DNA from: Gemmatimonadota bacterium
GTDB taxonomy: Bacteria; Gemmatimonadota; Gemmatimonadetes; Longimicrobiales; Gaopeijiaceae
Assembly: GCA_028874985.1 (NCBI GenBank)
Contig: JAPPGI010000027.1
Span: 1-49,296 of the forward strand
Reading direction: 5' to 3'
DNA: 49,296 bases
The notes under the pieces are model-generated. The model made no database searches. It saw only the letters and a program-made list of their open reading frames with translations, and was not told where the DNA came from. Numbering within the stretch: position 1 is the stretch's first letter; the number at the start of each line of letters is the position of its first letter. Positions 2,111-13,084 of the stretch are shown here, in pieces. Made by a program: the position numbers and the translations under genes.

Positions 2111-2993
2111 ATGAGAACTTACTCCCGTCCGCCGGACGGTCGGCTGGTCGTCCGCGATCCCGGAAACCAGCGGCTCGAGGTCTTCGTTCCCGGGACCGGG
2201 GAGACGGAACAGTGGGGGTACGTCGTGGGCGGCCTGCACTCGTTGTCTCCACTGTACACCGACGCTGGCGGCCGGACCTTTCTCCACACCCGGGACTACT
2301 CGCGGGAGGGCTTCGCCATGCACCTTGTCGTGTTCGGACCGGAAGGAACGCAAATCGACACGCTCCCGGTGCCATCGGACACCTATGAGCCCCCGCTCCT
2401 AGAGGGCGAGGAAGGAGGCATCTCGGCAAGTCATCCTGTGCCCTTCAGTCCCGAGCTGTTGTGGACGGTCCACCCCCAGCGGCCGTTTTCTCACCGGTTT
2501 CTCCTCCGACTACCGGATCGACCTCGCCCGGGACGACGGCGTGCTCAGAGTCGAGCGGGCCGCCGATCCCGTTCCGGTGCACGACGAGGAGTGCGCATAC
2601 GAGCGTGCGGTGGTGGTGGAGTACATGCGGCGCATGATCCCGGACTGGACCTGGAACGGGCCGCCGATACCGGAGCACAAGCCGTTCTTCCACGAACTGC
2701 TGGCAGGCCGGGACGGACGCATCTGGGTGAGGCTGGCGACCGAGGCGCATCCGGTCGAGAACGAGGATCACGACCCGGAGGATCCCTCTTCGATGCCGGT
2801 GGACTGGAGAGAACCGCTACGCTACGACGTCTTCGAACCCGACGGGACCTATCTCGGAGTCGTGGCGCCGCCGGAGGATTTCACGCACTGGGTGGAACCG
2901 GTCTTCGATGGGGACCACGTGTGGGCGGTGACCCGCGATGAGCTGGGCATCCAGCGGGTGGTGCGGTACCGGATCGAGGCGGGCGGGGGGTGA
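2111..2993 (+). pseudogene. Decapitated and frameshifted 6-bladed beta-propeller lipoprotein
   Basis: Paralogue of the two intact genes at 3998 and 5309. Homology to them starts abruptly around 2125 (PPDGRLVVRDPGNQR), so the signal peptide and roughly the first 130 residues are gone. A second lesion lies at the C-run 2473-2477: five Cs here against four at the matching place in the paralogue at 5309, shifting the frame. Removing one C restores HPSGRFLTGFSSDYR and continuous homology to the stop at 2993 (RYRIEAGGG). The loss of the 5' end coincides with the 3' flank of the recombinase gene, consistent with disruption by integration or recombination. It is not expected to make a functional protein. 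Confidence 0.85.
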
Positions 2994-3045
2994 CGGAACG
3001 ATTCGAAGGTGTGTGGACATACGCGAAACGGGCGGACACGGAGCC

Positions 3046-3576
3046 ATGCGCCCCCCTGCCGGCGCGGAGAAGGTCCGCGACCTCATGCGGCGCCTCGGGA
3101 ACGCCGCCCGCGGGGAAGGCAGGATATACCTGGTCGGGGGAAGTTCGGCGGTGCTTGTGGGGTGGAGGGAGAGCACGGTGGACATCGACCTCAAGCTCGA
3201 CCCCGAACCGCCCGGCGTGTTCGCCGCGATCGCGCGAGCGAAGGACGCGCTCGACGTCAACATCGAGCTCGCCGCTCCCGACGACTTCATTCCCGCGCTT
3301 CCAGGCTGGCGGGAGCGGAGCCGGTTCATCGCCAGGCACGGCCGCGTCGACTACTATCACTACGACTTCCATGCGCAGGCTCTCGCGAAGATCGAGCGCG
3401 GACATGAACTCGACCTTCTCGATGTCGGCGAGATGGCGCGCCGAAGGCTGATTCGGCCGGAGCGATTGGCGGAACTGTTCGAGGCCATCCAACCGGGTCT
3501 CGAACGCTACCCTGCGATTGATCCGCCGAGCTTTCGGGAGAAGGTGAGGCGGGAGATCATGGAGATGCGGTCATGA
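3046..3576 (+). CDS. Nucleotidyltransferase-fold protein (DUF6036/AbiEii-like)
   Basis: 176 aa. The N-terminal half carries the polymerase-beta-type nucleotidyltransferase signature: G31-G32-S33 on the first helix and D46-I-D48 (STVDIDLKLD). A third acidic residue could come from the DVNIEL strand. Length and arrangement resemble DUF6036 and AbiEii-type NTases, many of which act in toxin-antitoxin or abortive-infection modules by modifying tRNA or a partner protein. I chose the ATG at 3046 (CGGAG a few bases upstream) over a longer frame from 2938, which would overlap the preceding pseudogene. The stop overlaps the next start (ATGA), so the pair is translationally coupled. Whether this enzyme is toxin, antitoxin or housekeeping cannot be told; the fold assignment is fairly secure. 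Confidence 0.75.
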   Translation: MRPPAGAEKVRDLMRRLGNAARGEGRIYLVGGSSAVLVGWRESTVDIDLKLDPEPPGVFAAIARAKDALDVNIELAAPDDFIPALPGWRERSRFIARHGRVDYYHYDFHAQALAKIERGHELDLLDVGEMARRRLIRPERLAELFEAIQPGLERYPAIDPPSFREKVRREIMEMRS

Positions 3577-3929
3577 CATCCACGGAGAATGCGGTGGCCG
3601 GCCGCGCGGCGACGGGTGGCGCGGCCGTTCCCGGGGATCTCCCGGGCGCGGACCTCGTCGCCAGGGGGATCCGGGCGCTGCGCAACGGAGAGACGACTGT
3701 CGAAGCGCTCCTGGTCTCCGTGGGAGCGCCGCGGTTGCGGGCGGCGGGGCTGGACATTCCTCCCGGCCCACCGCTGCCGCACCCTCCCGAAATCTCGCTC
3801 TACCTCGCCATCGGCGCCGACGATCCCCGGGACGCGCATTCGCGCTACAATGCACTCATCCGCCGGCTGGTGAGTTTCGAGCGGGCGCTGGAGCGGCGGG
3901 TTCGCGCGGAATCGCCGGCCGGCTCGTAG
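3573..3929 (+). CDS. Hypothetical protein coupled to the nucleotidyltransferase
   Basis: 118 aa, starting in an ATGA overlap with the nucleotidyltransferase gene. I recognise no domain. It is predicted soluble, with no signal peptide or membrane segment. An N-terminal low-complexity Ala/Gly stretch (residues 1-25) is followed by an Ala/Leu-rich helical part (ADLVARGIRALRNGETTVEA) and a C-terminal amphipathic helix rich in Arg (IRRLVSFERALERRVR). There is no HEPN R-x4-6-H motif, so it is not an obvious MNT/HEPN partner. Strict coupling suggests it works with, or controls, the upstream enzyme. Confidence 0.6.
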   Translation: MTSTENAVAGRAATGGAAVPGDLPGADLVARGIRALRNGETTVEALLVSVGAPRLRAAGLDIPPGPPLPHPPEISLYLAIGADDPRDAHSRYNALIRRLVSFERALERRVRAESPAGS

Positions 3930-3997
3930 CGGCGAACCCGGAAAGGTCAACCACGGTTGCCGGAGTGTGAATCACCTCGTAATGGGAGGATCGGACG

Positions 3998-5251
3998 ATG
4001 AGAACATGTCTGCTGCTGTTGACGACGCCGTTCATTCCAGCGGCGTGTGGAACCGACGCGGGTCCCGCACCCGCCGGGCCGGAGGCGGTCGTCGACACCA
4101 TCGGCGACACCACTGTCGTCCGAACCCTGTCCGGGAGCCTCTGGGAGGGCGAAGCCACGCTGGTTCCGGAGATCTCGGTCGGCGAACTCGACGGGGCCGA
4201 GGAGTATCTCTTCGGCAGCATCTCGTCGATCGCCGTGAACGACAAGTGGGATCTCCACGTGTTGGACGGGCAGGCCCAGCACGTTCGGGTCTTCGACTCG
4301 GACGGGGGATACGTGGAGACGCTGGGCGGACGGGGAGAGGGGCCGGGCGAGTTCGGATACGCCGAGGCCGTCGCCCTTCTTCCGGACGGCCGCCTGGTGG
4401 TCCGCGATTCCCGCAACAACCGTATTTCGGTATTCGGTCCCGATCCCGGACAGACGGACCAATGGGGATTCGATGCGGGCAACTCCGGCTCGGACCTCCC
4501 GCTCCACACCGACGTGCAGGGCCGTACCTATCTGACAACCCGCGATCTGTCGAGCACCGATTGGGTCATGCACATCATCGTGCTGGGGCCGGACGGGACG
4601 CACCTCGACACGCTTCCGGAACCCTCGAGCCCCGTTGAGCGACCCATGCTGACGGCCGAGCACGCCGCCGAGTGGGGAACCAGCAGTACGAGCGCGCACG
4701 TACCCTTCAGCCCGGTGTTCCAGTGGACCGTTCACCCCGGCGGCCGCTTCATCTCCGGTCTGCCCTCCGAGTACCGGATCAACGTCCTCCACGATGACGG
4801 CGTGCTCCGAATCGAGCGCACCACAACTCCGGCGCCGATCCATGACGAGGAGCGCACCCGGGCGCGCGAACGCGTCGAGCGCAGCATGCGGAACACGGAC
4901 CCGGACTGGAGCTGGGACGGCCCGCCGATCCCGGAACACAAGCCGTTCTACCGGGAGCTGCTGGCCGGGCGGGATGGAAGGATCTGGGTAAGGCTGGCGA
5001 CCGAGGGACACCCCGTCGAGAACGGGAACCAGGACCCGGAGAATCCCCGTTCGGAGCCCGTGACCTGGGAAGAGTCGCTGCGCTACGACGTCTTCGAACC
5101 CGACGGGACGTATCTCGGGGTCGTGGTGCCGCCGTACGGATTCTCGCCCTTCGTTCAACCGGTCTTCGACGGGGACCATGTGTGGGGCGTGACCCGGGAC
5201 GAACTGGGGGTGGAGCGGGTGGTGCGGTTCCGGATCGAGGTGGGGCATTGA
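3998..5251 (+). CDS. 6-bladed beta-propeller lipoprotein
   Basis: 417 aa. A short hydrophobic signal ends in PAAC (Cys17), a slightly weak lipobox, so it is probably an exported lipoprotein. The body repeats beta-propeller blades (DLHVLDGQAQHVRVFDSDG; GRLVVRDSRNNRISVFG), each a short NHL-like sheet, with the GGRGEGPGEF loop typical of the DUF5128-type 6-bladed propeller family in Gemmatimonadota and Bacteroidota. No catalytic residues are evident; such proteins are generally thought to bind ligands or proteins at the cell surface. It is a close paralogue of the gene at 5309 and of the pseudogene at 2111, all in the same direction, so this is a tandem duplication. The start is the first in-frame ATG, preceded by GGGAGGATCGGACG. 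Confidence 0.85.
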   Translation: MRTCLLLLTTPFIPAACGTDAGPAPAGPEAVVDTIGDTTVVRTLSGSLWEGEATLVPEISVGELDGAEEYLFGSISSIAVNDKWDLHVLDGQAQHVRVFDSDGGYVETLGGRGEGPGEFGYAEAVALLPDGRLVVRDSRNNRISVFGPDPGQTDQWGFDAGNSGSDLPLHTDVQGRTYLTTRDLSSTDWVMHIIVLGPDGTHLDTLPEPSSPVERPMLTAEHAAEWGTSSTSAHVPFSPVFQWTVHPGGRFISGLPSEYRINVLHDDGVLRIERTTTPAPIHDEERTRARERVERSMRNTDPDWSWDGPPIPEHKPFYRELLAGRDGRIWVRLATEGHPVENGNQDPENPRSEPVTWEESLRYDVFEPDGTYLGVVVPPYGFSPFVQPVFDGDHVWGVTRDELGVERVVRFRIEVGH

Positions 5252-5308
5252 CTCCGTTCGAGCGACAGGACCACGGGACCCGGTGATTCCGGGGGAGAGG
5301 ATCGAAGG

Positions 5309-6559
5309 ATGAGAAGCAATCTTCTGCGATTTGGCGGGGCGGCATGCATGATCGCCCTCGCTGGCTGTGGAACCGAAGCGGGGCCTTCCGCCGCCGGGCC
5401 GGAGGTCTTCATCGACACCATCGGCGACACCACGATCGTCCGCACACTGGCCGGAAGTGTCTGGGAAGGAGAGGCCAGCCTGGTTCCGGAGATCTCGATC
5501 GGCGAACTCGACGGCCCGGAGGAGTACCTCTTCGGCAGGATCTTCTCGATCGCGGCGGACGATGACCTGAACGTGTACGTGTTCGACCACCAGGCCCAGC
5601 AGGTGCGCGTCTTCGACTCGCTGGGGACATACGTGGAGACGCTGGGCGGACCTGGCGAGGGACCGGGCGAGTTCAGCCGCGCCGAGGCCATCGCGCTGCT
5701 GCCGGACGGCCGGCTGGCGGTGCGCGATCCCGGCAACCAGCGCGTCCAGATCTTCGGTCCCGGGGCCGGTGAGACGGACCAGTGGGGATACAAGGTGGGC
5801 GGCCTGTACTCGGCGTCACCTCTGTACACGGACGTGAACGGGCGCACGTTTCTGCACACCAGCGATCTGTCCCGGGACGACTTCGTCATGCACCTCATCG
5901 TGTTCGGGCCCGACGGGGCGCAGGTCGACACGCTCCCCGAACCGTCGAGCGAGTATGAAGCCCCCATGCTGACGGCCGAGAACCGCGGGGCGACAACCTT
6001 GTTCGTGCCCTTCAGCCCCGTGTTGCAGTGGACGGTGCACCCCAGCGGCCATTTCCTTGCCGGTCTGCCCTCGGAGTACCGGGTCGACCTCGCCAGGGAC
6101 GACGGCGTGCTTCGAATCGAGCGCTCCGCCGACCCCATCCCGGTGCTCGACGGGGAGCGCGACCACGAACGCGAGCGGATCGAGCGCCGCATGCGGGAGA
6201 GGGACCCGAACTGGAGCTGGAACGGTCCGCCGATCCCGGACCACAAGCCGTTCTACAAGGAGCTGCTCGCGGGACGGGGCGGACGCATCTGGGTGAGGGT
6301 GACGACCGAGGGGTACGAGGCCGAAAACGAGTACCACGACCCGGAGGATCCCACTTCGATGCCGGTCGTCTGGAGGGAGTCGGTCCGCTACGACGTCTTC
6401 GAGCCGGACGGGACCTACCTGGGGGTCGTGGTGCCGCCGGACGAATTCACGCCCTACGTGGAACCGGTCTTCGACGGCGACCATGTCTGGGCCGTGACCC
6501 GGGACGAATTGGGGGTGGAGCGGGTGGTGCGGTTCCGGATCGTGACGGGTGGGGGTTGA
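5309..6559 (+). CDS. 6-bladed beta-propeller lipoprotein (tandem paralogue)
   Basis: 416 aa with a clear lipoprotein signal: basic N-terminus, hydrophobic core and lipobox LAGC (Cys20). The blade pattern and the GGPGEGPGEF loop match the gene at 3998 almost throughout (for example TIGDTT near residue 39, and the C-terminal ending DELGVERVVRFRI). The start is supported by GGGGGAGAGGATCGAAGG just upstream. It lies 57 bp after its neighbour and is probably co-transcribed. It preserves the reading frame that is broken in the 2111 copy and therefore served as reference for placing that lesion. Function beyond a surface propeller scaffold is unknown. Confidence 0.87.
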   Translation: MRSNLLRFGGAACMIALAGCGTEAGPSAAGPEVFIDTIGDTTIVRTLAGSVWEGEASLVPEISIGELDGPEEYLFGRIFSIAADDDLNVYVFDHQAQQVRVFDSLGTYVETLGGPGEGPGEFSRAEAIALLPDGRLAVRDPGNQRVQIFGPGAGETDQWGYKVGGLYSASPLYTDVNGRTFLHTSDLSRDDFVMHLIVFGPDGAQVDTLPEPSSEYEAPMLTAENRGATTLFVPFSPVLQWTVHPSGHFLAGLPSEYRVDLARDDGVLRIERSADPIPVLDGERDHERERIERRMRERDPNWSWNGPPIPDHKPFYKELLAGRGGRIWVRVTTEGYEAENEYHDPEDPTSMPVVWRESVRYDVFEPDGTYLGVVVPPDEFTPYVEPVFDGDHVWAVTRDELGVERVVRFRIVTGGG

Positions 6560-6692: not shown

Positions 6693-7739
6693 TCACTCTT
6701 GTCCTCCCCAACTCCGTATCAGCACGATTCGAACGTGCATCGGCTCTCGACCTGGCAGCGGGACCTCCCTTTCCTCCCCCTCGTGAGCGCCGAGCAGCGC
6801 ATGGCCGATGGCCGAGTCGCGCGAGACCTCCCCCTTGTCCCAGTCGGGCTCGCCGCCCACGACCATTCGGACGATGATCTCCCGGGACTCAAAATCGTAG
6901 ACCCAAACCCTGTCGCCCACTGCGACGCGGCGCGCGGGCTTCGGGTCCGGGGGGTCCGGCGGCCAGCGAACCGAGCTGAGCTGGCCGCGGACAAAGCCCA
7001 GCGCCCTCCTTCGGTCGGCTGGGACGCCAACGGTCTCCTCCATTTCGCGTAGGAAACGGCGGATAACCTCGCGTCCCGCCACGGAACGGCGCCACGCCCC
7101 GCGAGCTTCGGCCGGAAAGCGCCGGTCCCTGTAGTCCAGCTCGGCCTGGCGGAATGCCTCCCCCGGCTTGACGGTGTGGAACGACAGGTATGTGTCGAGG
7201 GCTTCGGCTACGTCTTCCCTCGCGTCGTCCACGATGTGGCAACGGGCGAATTCCCGATTGCGGATGCTCCCTCGGCCCGCCGGAAAATGGAATCTCCAGC
7301 GGCGACCGTCCTCCGAGACCGCCAGCTGGATGGCCTGGGTGGAGCAGTCGTCGAAGGGGTGGTCGCACGGGGCGGCCGCCGATCCCGGGAGCGCCCCGAT
7401 CCTGACGAGGATCCGCGGATGGTCCGGAGGATGGCAGAGGGCGAAGTCGACCGCACCGGCCGGGGTCTCGAAGCCGGGCGTCACCACTGATCGATCCTCC
7501 ACATTCCATCCGAGGTGCCGCAGGAGAGGGAGGAGGACGCCATCCGCGATGTCGGTCCGAGCCGTGAAGCTCCCCCGATCGAGATCACCCGCCAGTACGC
7601 GCAGCCTCCCGGCAAGGGACTCGATGCGCCACTGGCGGTCGAAGAGGGGCAGCCCGCCGGCCGGGTCGTCCACGGGGCAGGGCTCCTCGTCACGGTCATG
7701 CGGTCTGTCCGTGTCCACGATGCTGCGGGTGTCCTCCAT
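6693..7739 (-). CDS. HsdR-N-like fold fused to GreA/GreB C-terminal domain
   Basis: 348 aa, no signal peptide. Residues about 60-140 resemble the N-terminal PD-(D/E)xK fold of type I restriction subunit R (VLLPLLRHLGWNVEDR, then VDFALCHP), but the strand that should carry E-x-K reads ILVRIGAL, so the catalytic Glu and Lys are missing and nuclease activity is unlikely. Residues about 265-345 match the GreA/GreB C-terminal FKBP-like domain (VGDRVWVYDF, SRDSAIGHALLGAHEGEE, VRIVLI). That domain docks on the RNA polymerase secondary channel rim in Gre factors; the Gre coiled-coil that stimulates cleavage is absent. The protein may therefore contact RNA polymerase without cleaving DNA. It lies 105 bp downstream of the gene at 7845-9266 on the same strand. 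The domain calls are by eye; the Gre part is the more secure. Confidence 0.65.
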   Translation of the reverse strand: MEDTRSIVDTDRPHDRDEEPCPVDDPAGGLPLFDRQWRIESLAGRLRVLAGDLDRGSFTARTDIADGVLLPLLRHLGWNVEDRSVVTPGFETPAGAVDFALCHPPDHPRILVRIGALPGSAAAPCDHPFDDCSTQAIQLAVSEDGRRWRFHFPAGRGSIRNREFARCHIVDDAREDVAEALDTYLSFHTVKPGEAFRQAELDYRDRRFPAEARGAWRRSVAGREVIRRFLREMEETVGVPADRRRALGFVRGQLSSVRWPPDPPDPKPARRVAVGDRVWVYDFESREIIVRMVVGGEPDWDKGEVSRDSAIGHALLGAHEGEEREVPLPGREPMHVRIVLIRSWGGQE

Positions 7740-7844
7740 CGCGTGAACGATCCCGGTGTGAAGCCCCTACGACAATCGGGACGGCTCGGCGCCGGGTCAA
7801 ACGCGGCACGCCGGCCGGTCGAGGTTTGCGGGGCCCTAGCTCCG

Positions 7845-9266
7845 CTACCTGCGCTTCCTCCTGCGCTTCTTCTTCCGCTTCCGCCGACTGCGGCGCTTCG
7901 ATCCGCGGCTGACCGTGGACACCGCCCGCGGGCCCGGTCGCGATCCCGCTCTGTCCAGCCCGCCATCCTCCTGGCTCCCCGAATCCGCCGGCGAAGACCC
8001 CGTGAGGCGCTCCAAACCCGGCAACCTGTAGCCCACCTTCCTCCAACGACGGTCCACGTCGGCCACGAGCTCCGCCATCACCCCGGCTCGGATCCAGTGC
8101 TTGCGGTTCGCCTTCAGCACGCGGGCGCGCGGCGGCCGCTCCGTCAAGGTCAGACCCGCGAAGCGCCTGAAGCTGAGACGGTCCAGGACCAGGAACTCCA
8201 GATCGTTGTCGGACACTTCGTAGACCGCTCCCAGGAGGATGCACTTCCACGTCACCAGCGCATCGTCCGTCAACGCCTCGTCCGCGAGCGCCAGGTCGTG
8301 GGGGAAGGTGCGCGGACCCTCCAGCCGTGCGCGATAAAGCTCCCAAGGAACCGCCTCGTTCAGGATGTGCAGCGAGCTGAACCTCGGCGCGCGCCTCGCG
8401 AGGGACTCCATCCTCTCGTGCGCCTCCTCGATCTCGAGGTCGGCGAACGTCCCCTGGCGAACGATTCCCGACGATGCGCGCAGGTCCGCCACCGACCTGA
8501 CGGCACCGTCCCCGGCCCAGCCGGGAGGCGGCCGTCTCCGGGGCTTGCGGGCCGGGAAGCTTGTCGCGTCGCGAACGACGGTCACCCGGTGGCCGCGCGC
8601 CAGCAGCGGGTCCACCGACGAAGCCAGCGACCCCTCTTTCGCGAACCCAACGACCAACACCTCCGCGGGCCGTCGGTACTTCTCCTCGATGGCCGCAAGA
8701 AAGGACTTGCAGGCCGGGCTCCGGGCGAAGTCGCCGCCACTCGGTCCGCTTGCAACGACGGCCCGCCCCTCGTCCAGGGCGCGGTGCGCCATGTCCTCCC
8801 CCTCGTCCTCTCCCGCGTCGTGGCTCAGCCGCAGGGGATTCACCGGGCGAACGAGATCGTACACATGGGAACCCCCGGCGCCGTCCCCGTCCGCCACATA
8901 GACCATGACGATACAGCGGGCTGCCATCCAGTCCACGGCCTCCATCAACGACTCCCCCGCCCTGCGCGCCGCCACGCGCCTCAAGCCGCCGGCGCCGAAG
9001 ACGTGGAGCCGACCCGTCGCGTCCAGGATCTCTTGCAGCGCGTCCGCGACCCAGCCGACGCGGACGGGCGGCAGGTCATCCCACTTCGCGGAGGAGCGTT
9101 GGCCTTCGTCCGTGTCGTTCGGTGATGGTGACGGATCGGGCGCGCGAGCGGGAGGCAGGGGGTCGGGGTTGGTCGGGTCGGAGCCGGTAGCGGCGGGGTC
9201 GTCGTTCTGGGTCATGAGCGGGTGCGGGGGTGGGCGGACATGGGCAACCGTCCGGCGTCTCGGCAA
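7845..9266 (-). CDS. Degenerate isochorismatase-like domain fused to IS5-type DUF772 region
   Basis: 473 aa from the upstream start; an ATG at 9215 (MTQNDDP) is a likely alternative, since the first 17 residues look non-coding. After a Pro-rich linker, residues about 70-235 resemble the cysteine-hydrolase (isochorismatase) Rossmann-like fold: AEVLVVGFAKEGSLASSVDPLL aligns with the segment that normally holds the nucleophilic Cys, but Ser stands there and the catalytic Lys region is also changed. Residues about 280-410 resemble the N-terminal DUF772 part of IS5 transposases (TWKCILLGAVYEVSDNDLEF, DRLSFRRFAGL), with no DDE catalytic domain after it. The last 20 residues are almost all Arg/Lys, a likely nucleic-acid-binding tail. 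This looks like a domesticated, non-transposing protein; its role is unknown. Confidence 0.55.
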   Translation of the reverse strand: MPRRRTVAHVRPPPHPLMTQNDDPAATGSDPTNPDPLPPARAPDPSPSPNDTDEGQRSSAKWDDLPPVRVGWVADALQEILDATGRLHVFGAGGLRRVAARRAGESLMEAVDWMAARCIVMVYVADGDGAGGSHVYDLVRPVNPLRLSHDAGEDEGEDMAHRALDEGRAVVASGPSGGDFARSPACKSFLAAIEEKYRRPAEVLVVGFAKEGSLASSVDPLLARGHRVTVVRDATSFPARKPRRRPPPGWAGDGAVRSVADLRASSGIVRQGTFADLEIEEAHERMESLARRAPRFSSLHILNEAVPWELYRARLEGPRTFPHDLALADEALTDDALVTWKCILLGAVYEVSDNDLEFLVLDRLSFRRFAGLTLTERPPRARVLKANRKHWIRAGVMAELVADVDRRWRKVGYRLPGLERLTGSSPADSGSQEDGGLDRAGSRPGPRAVSTVSRGSKRRSRRKRKKKRRRKRR

Positions 9267-9506
9267 GGGTCGGGGGCGGTGGCCGGATTCGCCTTGAGGG
9301 AAGATGCGGACAACCGGGACAAGGGCAACCCAGGCAGCCTGCCATCAAGCAGTCCGTGGACAAAGCCGCGCGAGCACCGAGAGACGGCGAGGGGCCGGGC
9401 TGGCAAGGCGCGACGAGAGGGGAATAGCGCTATTCGCCCGTGGAGCAACGCAGAGCGGAGCGTTAGCGGGGGCTGAGGGCGGCGGTTGCCGGTCGCCGGC
9501 GCCCGG

Positions 9507-11069
9507 CTATTCGTCGGACCACTCTCTTCGCGGCGACCTCACCATCGGCAGTCCCTCCTGCTCCGAAGTCGCCGGCACCGGGTACCGCCCCGTCCCCCGC
9601 CGCCCCTCAACCGCCGCCAACACTCTCTTCCCGGCTGCGGTGGCCCGATACATCTGCATCCTGCTCGTGGGCTTCTCCGGGATAGTCATCTCGATCCATC
9701 CAGCGTCCATCAGCGGTCTGAGAACCTGGTTCCTGAACTTGGTGCGATTCGTTCTTCCCATCACCGCCATCAGTTCCGTCATGGGCCGCGCCGACAATGA
9801 CTTGCGGAGAATCTCCACTTGGTCCCGACTTGGTCCCGACTTGGTCCCGACTCGGTCCCGACCCGGTCCCTCGGAAGTCGCGCCCGAAGCCTCGCCCCGC
9901 TTTCGCATGCCGACGCTCTCCAGATAGTCATCCGAAAACCTGAACTCGAACCAGAGGCCGCCGGGCTCCAATCGGATCTCCGGTTCCGGAGTCCCGGCCC
10001 TTCTGCAAGCGCGGAGAACACGGTCGATGCCCCGTCCCCACGACTCGATTTCGCCCGCCCAGAAGAAGGCATTCGCGATGTCCGGGTTGTAGGGCTGAGA
10101 CGGGTGGGGGCCCAGCAGCTTCTCGAGCGTCCAGCCCACGGGTAGAGAACCCGGGTTGTAGATGCGCAGGCGGTCATCGTGCACGCGAATCTGGATAGGG
10201 GCGGGGACCGCGTAGTCCCGGTGGACGACTGCATTGAGGAGCGCTTCCCGCAGCGCCGGCTCGGGCATCGGGTAGCTCTCCACCCTGTAGATCCCGTCGT
10301 AGGTGATGCCCGCCTTCAGATACTTGAAGAGCAGAACTTCCATGGTCTTGTCGACCTGGGCGAAGAGATCGCCGGAAATCACATCGTGAAAACGCACGTC
10401 CCAGTCGTTCCGGAAGTAGCCGACCTTCACGTGCGCGCCCGCCACAAACCGCTCCGGGTCGCGATGGAACAGTAGAATCGCTGCCTTGGACAGGTAATCG
10501 CCGTGCTTGAGCCGCAACTTGTCGACGAGACCGGCATCGTCGTCGGCGAGCGCGTTCTTCGAGAGCCTTCTCTCCCTGTTTGCCCGCTTGCGAAATCCCG
10601 CCATCGCGCCTGGATCAAGGTCGTCCAGCGCAACCCGCGGGTCCGGCATCCCGTCCCAGCACCTACCGGTCTTCCCGAGCAGGAAGCGGTCGAGGGCGGG
10701 GCCGCGGAGTATCTGATTCGTGCTTCCGCTGCGCTGGTAGTAGACGCCCCGGTAGCTGATCGCCACGGGGTACGGTTCGACGACGATGCGCAGGCAGGAG
10801 AGACCGTCATCCTCACGAACGTCCATGGGGGCGACCATGCCGAGGAGGTCGCGGAGCTTGTTGGGCAGCTCCTCCAGCAACCGCCTGCGCTCCCCGGCAC
10901 CGACGCCTACGACCTTGCCATCGTCGCCGCGTCCGATCTCCAGCGTGCCGCCACTCGCATTCGCGAAGGCGCACACCGTTTTCAGGTGGTCGTCACGCCA
11001 GGAGGCTTTCCATTCGAGCTGCTGTCCTTCGGTCAAGCGGGTCACTCCGGTCTCCGGTGAGGTCGTCAT
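9507..11069 (-). CDS. AlbA_2/Schlafen-like ATP-binding transcriptional regulator
   Basis: 520 aa. The N-terminal AlbA_2 (Schlafen AlbA_2) domain is at about residues 12-130 (EGQQLEWKASW; FANASGGTLEIG; YYQRSGSTN). A GHKL-type HATPase_c_4 region lies at about 280-385 (REALLNAVVHRDYA; IYNPGSLP; WGRGIDRVL), and a C-terminal winged helix at about 430-500. The family is widespread as putative regulators and is often found with mobile elements or defence genes. I chose the ATG at 11069 (MTTSPETG) over the longer frame because the extra 18 residues look like translated leader. The linker before the winged helix (GRDRVGTKSGPSRDQVE) is encoded by an 11-bp tandem repeat, annotated separately. It is a monocistronic-looking reverse gene next to the divergent TetR gene. 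Confidence 0.8.
   Translation of the reverse strand: MTTSPETGVTRLTEGQQLEWKASWRDDHLKTVCAFANASGGTLEIGRGDDGKVVGVGAGERRRLLEELPNKLRDLLGMVAPMDVREDDGLSCLRIVVEPYPVAISYRGVYYQRSGSTNQILRGPALDRFLLGKTGRCWDGMPDPRVALDDLDPGAMAGFRKRANRERRLSKNALADDDAGLVDKLRLKHGDYLSKAAILLFHRDPERFVAGAHVKVGYFRNDWDVRFHDVISGDLFAQVDKTMEVLLFKYLKAGITYDGIYRVESYPMPEPALREALLNAVVHRDYAVPAPIQIRVHDDRLRIYNPGSLPVGWTLEKLLGPHPSQPYNPDIANAFFWAGEIESWGRGIDRVLRACRRAGTPEPEIRLEPGGLWFEFRFSDDYLESVGMRKRGEASGATSEGPGRDRVGTKSGPSRDQVEILRKSLSARPMTELMAVMGRTNRTKFRNQVLRPLMDAGWIEMTIPEKPTSRMQMYRATAAGKRVLAAVEGRRGTGRYPVPATSEQEGLPMVRSPRREWSDE
9819..9870. repeat. 11-bp tandem repeat inside the AlbA_2 gene
   Basis: About five consecutive copies of TTGGTCCCGAC, the last two with point changes (TCGGTCCCGAC, CCGGTCCCT). 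Since 11 is not a multiple of 3, successive copies are read in different frames and give the irregular linker between the ATPase part and the winged helix. A change in copy number would shift the frame and remove the DNA-binding end, so the tract could act as a slippage switch, though I have no evidence that it does. Confidence 0.8.
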
Positions 11070-11257
11070 ACAGAGAAACCTAACGCGCCGGTGGTCGCCT
11101 CCCGGCCCTGGTCCGGAATGCACCCCCTACGCCCGCACGCCTCGCGCATCACCCGCAGCGCGTTGAGCCCCTGGGATTCGTTCCCCGCGCTCCCGAGCCG
11201 TGTCCGCGCGCCAGGAGCATCTCGGCGAGAATGCGAGACCGAACGGGGTCGGACCGG

Positions 11258-13003: not shown

Positions 13004-13084
13004 AGGGCCCTCCCTGCGCCCCCCAACACCTCGCGCAACACCGGCAGCGCGCGAGCCGCGGCGATCGTGGCCGGGATCCACCCC

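Follow-up and report, generated by a model that had tools for sequence, protein, structure and literature searches.

Host-transposase fusion genes are described from eukaryotes, with CSB-PGBD3 and SETMAR as examples (PMC3459987, PMC8327481). The gene reported here shares with these two a transposase-derived part that was captured in frame by a host protein and then retained. In contrast to them, it is bacterial, a dead enzyme makes up its host part, the transposase contributes its N-terminal region only, and DNA binding is putative. Two features that mark such fusions were found: a single in-frame ORF carries host and transposase domains in several species (four genomes, whose copies form a single clade), and the fused protein is under purifying selection, which is stronger in the transposase part and partial in the enzyme part. 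The gene is a host-transposase fusion, a known kind, with a pseudoenzyme as the partner; what sets it apart are its occurrence in bacteria, its component parts, and intermediates that can be traced. An isochorismatase-transposase fusion was not found described in the literature.

The two halves have relatives of their own. The nicotinamidase/isochorismatase-like hydrolase family (PF00857) is homologous over its full length to residues 49 to 250, and the closest relatives of this half are the divergent nicotinamidases of the same bacterial class. Compared to the PF00857 enzymes, the fusion retains the Asp but has the catalytic Lys and Cys replaced, the metal motif lost or deleted, and an extra domain joined. 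IS5-family transposases with DUF772 (PF05598, NF033581, NF033551) align with residues about 252 to 427, from the transposase N-terminus through DUF772. Unlike these transposases, the fusion has no DDE core and falls far short of the equivalog cut-offs, and no terminal inverted repeats were found at the gene.

The gene lies in a 49,296-nucleotide stretch of a Gemmatimonadota genome (G000), referred to here as the window. It was compared with copies in three other genomes (G010, G014, and G018) from a set of 23 genomes of the same genus.

Gene structure and source of the two halves

The minus-strand ORF at 7845-9266 was confirmed and encodes 473 residues if read from the TTG at 9266, the start taken in the first-pass annotation. 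All four orthologues, however, share an M-[TS]-[QH] start, which in the window is the ATG at 9213-9215. Because this start is conserved, the fusion protein is 456 residues in length and the earlier start was placed 17 codons too early. The features of the locus are collected in Table 1.

Table 1. Features of the fusion gene and its surroundings, in window coordinates.
Feature	Position	Strand	Evidence
Fusion gene, 456 aa	7845..9215	-	Four orthologues with the same start, both domains, and tail; purifying selection, no stops
Residues 1-48, Pro-rich acidic low-complexity leader	9072..9215	-	Fastest evolving part, dN/dS about 0.8-1.4
Residues 49-250, nicotinamidase-derived pseudoenzyme domain	8466..9071	-	hhalign 99.9%, tree, active-site alignment
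Residues 251-427, IS5-family transposase N-terminal part, ends before DDE core	7935..8465	-	hhalign 99.3% to transposase on contig C3; plasmid IS5 transposases
Residues 322-385, DUF772 (PF05598)	8061..8252	-	Pfam E=1.9e-8
Residues 437-456, poly-Lys/Arg tail, 17/20 basic	7848..7907	-	Fusion-specific among 23 genomes
Interval absent from otherwise collinear G021 locus (about 36 bp there)	7747..9497		Locus comparison
Neighbouring gene, inactive HSDR_N-like nuclease domain and GreA_GreB C-terminal domain	6693..7739	-	Adjoins fusion in 3/4 genomes
Upstream neighbour, SLFN_AlbA_2 / HATPase_c_4 / Fic-like_C protein	9507..11123	-	Outside conserved pair in G018

Using Pfam alone, the Isochorismatase match in the fusion is weak (E=0.14). 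A profile-profile comparison (hhalign) of the N-terminal half with 28 stand-alone nicotinamidases of the class gave a probability of 99.9% over 201 columns, with homology spanning the whole domain, so that the isochorismatase-like domain proposed in the first-pass annotation can be specified as nicotinamidase-derived. Asp22, Asp73, His75, His97, Lys152, and Cys191 are conserved throughout the stand-alone enzymes, in which none of these columns has more than one exception. The fusions retain Asp22 (Asp58 of the G000 protein), but Lys152 is replaced by Gly, Gly, Gly, or Arg, and Cys191 is replaced by Ser, Ser, Ser, or Thr, which breaks the Asp-Lys-Cys triad. The Ser that had been noted at the nucleophile position is Ser196 (codon 8628-8630), which indeed faces Cys191 of the intact enzyme. 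The metal site (D73-W-H75 and the PPH97 region) is deleted or replaced in all four fusions. A 31-residue loop containing part of this site is absent from the G000, G010, and G014 proteins; the G018 protein still has a scrambled loop of about 31 residues, which is an intermediate state.

The C-terminal half has a different source. DUF772 scores above the curated Pfam cut-off (E=1.9e-8 in G000 and E=3.5e-10 in G018), and weak NCBIfam matches to IS1182/IS5 transposases, far below cut-off, cover the same stretch. Residues from about 253 to 427 match the N-terminal end of a fragmentary IS5-family transposase encoded on another contig of G000 (C3) at 34% identity with an hhalign probability of 99.3%, and plasmid IS5 transposases match residues 254 to 427. 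The alignment begins at the transposase's own N-terminus (RQGTFAD versus KQLSFAD), directly after the last nicotinamidase residues, and the junction thus consists of an essentially complete enzyme followed by a transposase start. The homology stops near residue 427, close to the first catalytic Asp; D1 is not conserved, and D2 and the Glu are absent. Both active sites having been lost, known chemistry leaves no room for catalysis. Terminal inverted repeats around the fusion gene were looked for and none were found, which rules out a mobile element with its own ends.

The protein ends in a strongly basic tail. A pattern scan of the 23 genus genomes for a basic run before a stop codon found clear Lys/Arg tails at real stops only on the G000, G010, and G018 fusions; the G014 fusion has a slightly different basic tail, and the remaining matches were low-complexity sequence, a non-stop TGG, or a single TGA match in G004. 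The basic character is kept even in the G018 copy, which is about 43% identical. The DUF772 region, the missing DDE domain, and the nearly all-Arg/Lys last 20 residues had each been read from the window before these comparisons, and all three stood.

An AlphaFold2 prediction on a three-row alignment had a mean pLDDT of 36.9 and the model was unusable; in its predicted secondary structure, strands and helices are ordered as would fit an alpha/beta domain and then an all-helical one. PDB searches with the fusion, nicotinamidase, C-terminal half profile, and transposase as queries gave no significant match, and the fusion was unmatched by PADLOC.

Distribution, selection, and locus

The full architecture, including the tail, is present in 4 of the 23 genus genomes, with the copies in G010, G014, and G018 having 85%, 76%, and about 43-45% identity to that of G000. 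The occurrence of the same architecture in four independent genome bins argues against chance and rules out an assembly chimera. The first-pass annotation had named two outcomes that would count against it, namely rejection of either half by separate domain searches and a lack of homologues with the same full-length fusion. Since both halves were accepted in separate profile searches (hhalign for each, Pfam for DUF772) and three further genomes carry the fusion, neither outcome was observed. A C-terminal half profile search of 394 class genomes and 395 phylum genomes, in which the best few candidates per genome were scored and weak relatives could be missed, found no further fusions. The fusion was not found in a collection of viral contigs, and among the matches listed from a plasmid collection there were only IS5 transposases matching the C-terminal half, none covering 80%. 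The best reading is that the fusion is young and genus-restricted. The bin names of G010 and G014 hint at the sponges Coscinoderma and Rhopaloeides, which suggests sponge-associated bacteria; both sponges are reported hosts of Palauibacterales (PMC10469786), a group to which this genus may belong.

In a phylogenetic tree, the nicotinamidase halves of the four fusions form one clade with support of 100/99 and long branches, which makes a single fusion event followed by fast evolution likely. G000 encodes an intact stand-alone nicotinamidase-like protein of 247 residues, its gene located beside a nicotinate phosphoribosyltransferase-like gene. Each of the four genomes with a fusion also encodes an intact nicotinamidase, which makes the fusion an additional copy.

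To describe selection, dN/dS was estimated by the Nei-Gojobori method, a simple method applied here to sequences with strongly GC-biased base composition. The IS-derived part has dN/dS of 0.31-0.50 in all pairs (0.33-0.47 in DUF772), and synonymous differences exceed non-synonymous ones significantly in each of the pairs compared (p 0.013 to 1.7e-6). The enzyme-derived part has values of 0.44-0.56 among G000, G010, and G014 and of 0.75-1.0, near neutrality, versus G018; its synonymous excess reaches significance within this closer trio alone (p 0.026 to 0.0005). None of the four divergent copies contains an internal stop or frameshift. In a simple neutral simulation, <2% of the replicates were still stop-free after 0.2 substitutions per site, as were 0 of 400 after 0.4; nearly all replicates had acquired a stop at the divergence observed. 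Taken together, the selection tests and the stop-free copies indicate that the encoded protein is being preserved, with the clearer signal in the transposase part, and they agree with the earlier view of one fused protein. A plain pseudogene is ruled out by the selection tests.

Slow decay has to be weighed, in which the gene is a transient chimera, translated but functionless debris left by an enzyme duplicate and a transposon. The patchy presence (4 of 23), the decayed active site with its loop deleted in three copies, and the near-neutral pseudoenzyme half in comparison with G018 are all expected from such a gene. However, four divergent copies without a stop or frameshift, significant purifying selection on the transposase part in all pairs and on the enzyme part in the closer clade, and a tail that was kept basic speak against it, and we consider decay unlikely, although it deserves serious weight.

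The genomic setting differs among the copies. In the species G021, the AlbA_2 gene is followed directly by the gene for the Gre-domain protein; where G021 has about 36 bases, G000 has about 1750 extra bases with the fusion, which is a clean insertion relative to G021. In G018, this pair of genes lies in swapped order between a fatty-acid hydroxylase gene and an outer-membrane-like gene, and these flanks, about 3.8 kb apart in G018, are only 72 bp apart in G000 (window 13006-13078). The pair is adjacent in the G000 order in G010, and the two genes are on different contigs in G014, such that the fusion is beside the Gre-domain gene in three of four copies. In their behaviour the two genes resemble accessory genes of a variable region. 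At 56% identity or more, the Gre-domain gene occurs in 9 of the 23 genus genomes and therefore does not depend on the fusion. The N-terminal domain of its product is homologous to HSDR_N-type PD-(D/E)xK proteins that keep D...ExK (relatives L049 and L050). In all seven complete genus copies the Asp is kept and ExK is lost, making this protein a second dead-enzyme fusion.

Other features of these loci were also observed. A dispersed repeat of ∼115 bp at window 9348-9464, of which the genome has at least 42 copies (79-94% identity), contains the palindrome GAATAGCGCTATTC and is perhaps a REP- or MITE-like element. On the plus strand, window 2479-6559 encodes tandem paralogues of six-bladed beta-propeller (DUF5128/NHL) proteins, three similar copies of which are found at the G021 locus. 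In G010, the fusion/Gre pair is followed (L036, 2697-6470) by a 733-residue protein without a clear Pfam match, HSP90-type ATPase-like by eye, and by an AAA_14/DUF4143 protein that matches the phage-defence candidate PDC-S01 (E=3.9e-84), suggesting that the G010 fusion region is variable and possibly defence-related.

Origin and possible function

Our current hypothesis is that a nicotinamidase gene was duplicated and that one copy became fused in frame, through its C-terminal end, to the beginning of an IS5 transposase gene truncated ahead of the catalytic core. This would have happened a single time, in the ancestry of part of this Gemmatimonadota genus. Judging from sequence, we find it somewhat probable that the product is a functional, co-opted nucleic-acid-binding protein (DNA or RNA). 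Selection has preserved the DUF772 region and the basic tail, together with an altered yet constrained hydrolase fold, and nucleic-acid binding by a protein that assembles through this fold would be the simplest reading. The presence in only 4 of 23 genomes, the near-neutral evolution of the pseudoenzyme half versus G018, the neighbour linkage lost in G014, and the gene order swapped in G018 are points against co-option. As a non-catalytic nucleic-acid-binding factor, the protein could use its nicotinamidase fold as an assembly module, or possibly as a small-molecule-sensing module. Isochorismatase-fold enzymes are often oligomers. DUF772 would be a helical DNA-recognition or dimerisation module, with DNA binding assumed from its place in transposases, and the Lys/Arg tail may serve as an electrostatic clamp.

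The fusion may act with the neighbouring dead-nuclease/Gre-domain protein on host transcription or DNA. A speculative extension, to which we assign a low probability, is that the fusion and this neighbour (a dead PD-(D/E)xK nuclease combined with a Gre C-terminal domain) together constitute a new module for the control of transcription or DNA. If true, sponge-associated Gemmatimonadota would possess a two-protein module built wholly from inactivated enzymes, the DNA-recognition part of a transposase, and an RNA-polymerase-binding domain.

Two other functions are less compatible with the data. One is a role in NAD salvage as sensor or decoy, in which the pseudoenzyme would bind nicotinamide or associate with its intact counterpart and the signal would be relayed to DNA by the C-terminal part. 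The fold and the Asp are kept, and the same genomes encode the intact enzyme (next to nicotinate phosphoribosyltransferase in G000), but the motifs for ligand and metal contact are mostly lost, three copies lack the metal loop, and the fusion is unlinked to NAD genes, which makes this role improbable. Truncated transposases are known as inhibitors of transposition, and the retained N-terminal region with truncation before the catalytic core would suit a protein that binds the ends of a related element or acts as a poison of the element's transposase, multimerising through the enzyme fold; however, we regard this as very improbable and less likely than nucleic-acid binding in general because almost no related IS5 is present, with one distant fragment in G000 (C3, 34% identity) and none found in G010, G014, or G018.

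Regardless of its exact role, the fusion, which we favor as a nucleic-acid-binding protein, adds a bacterial case to a class documented mainly in eukaryotes, and it can be dated to within one genus. Because the parental families are found in the same genome, the metal loop is degenerate in G018, and an empty site is known, the birth of this protein is traceable and testable. It offers a case in which a new, probably DNA-binding protein was born from a metabolic enzyme and an insertion sequence.
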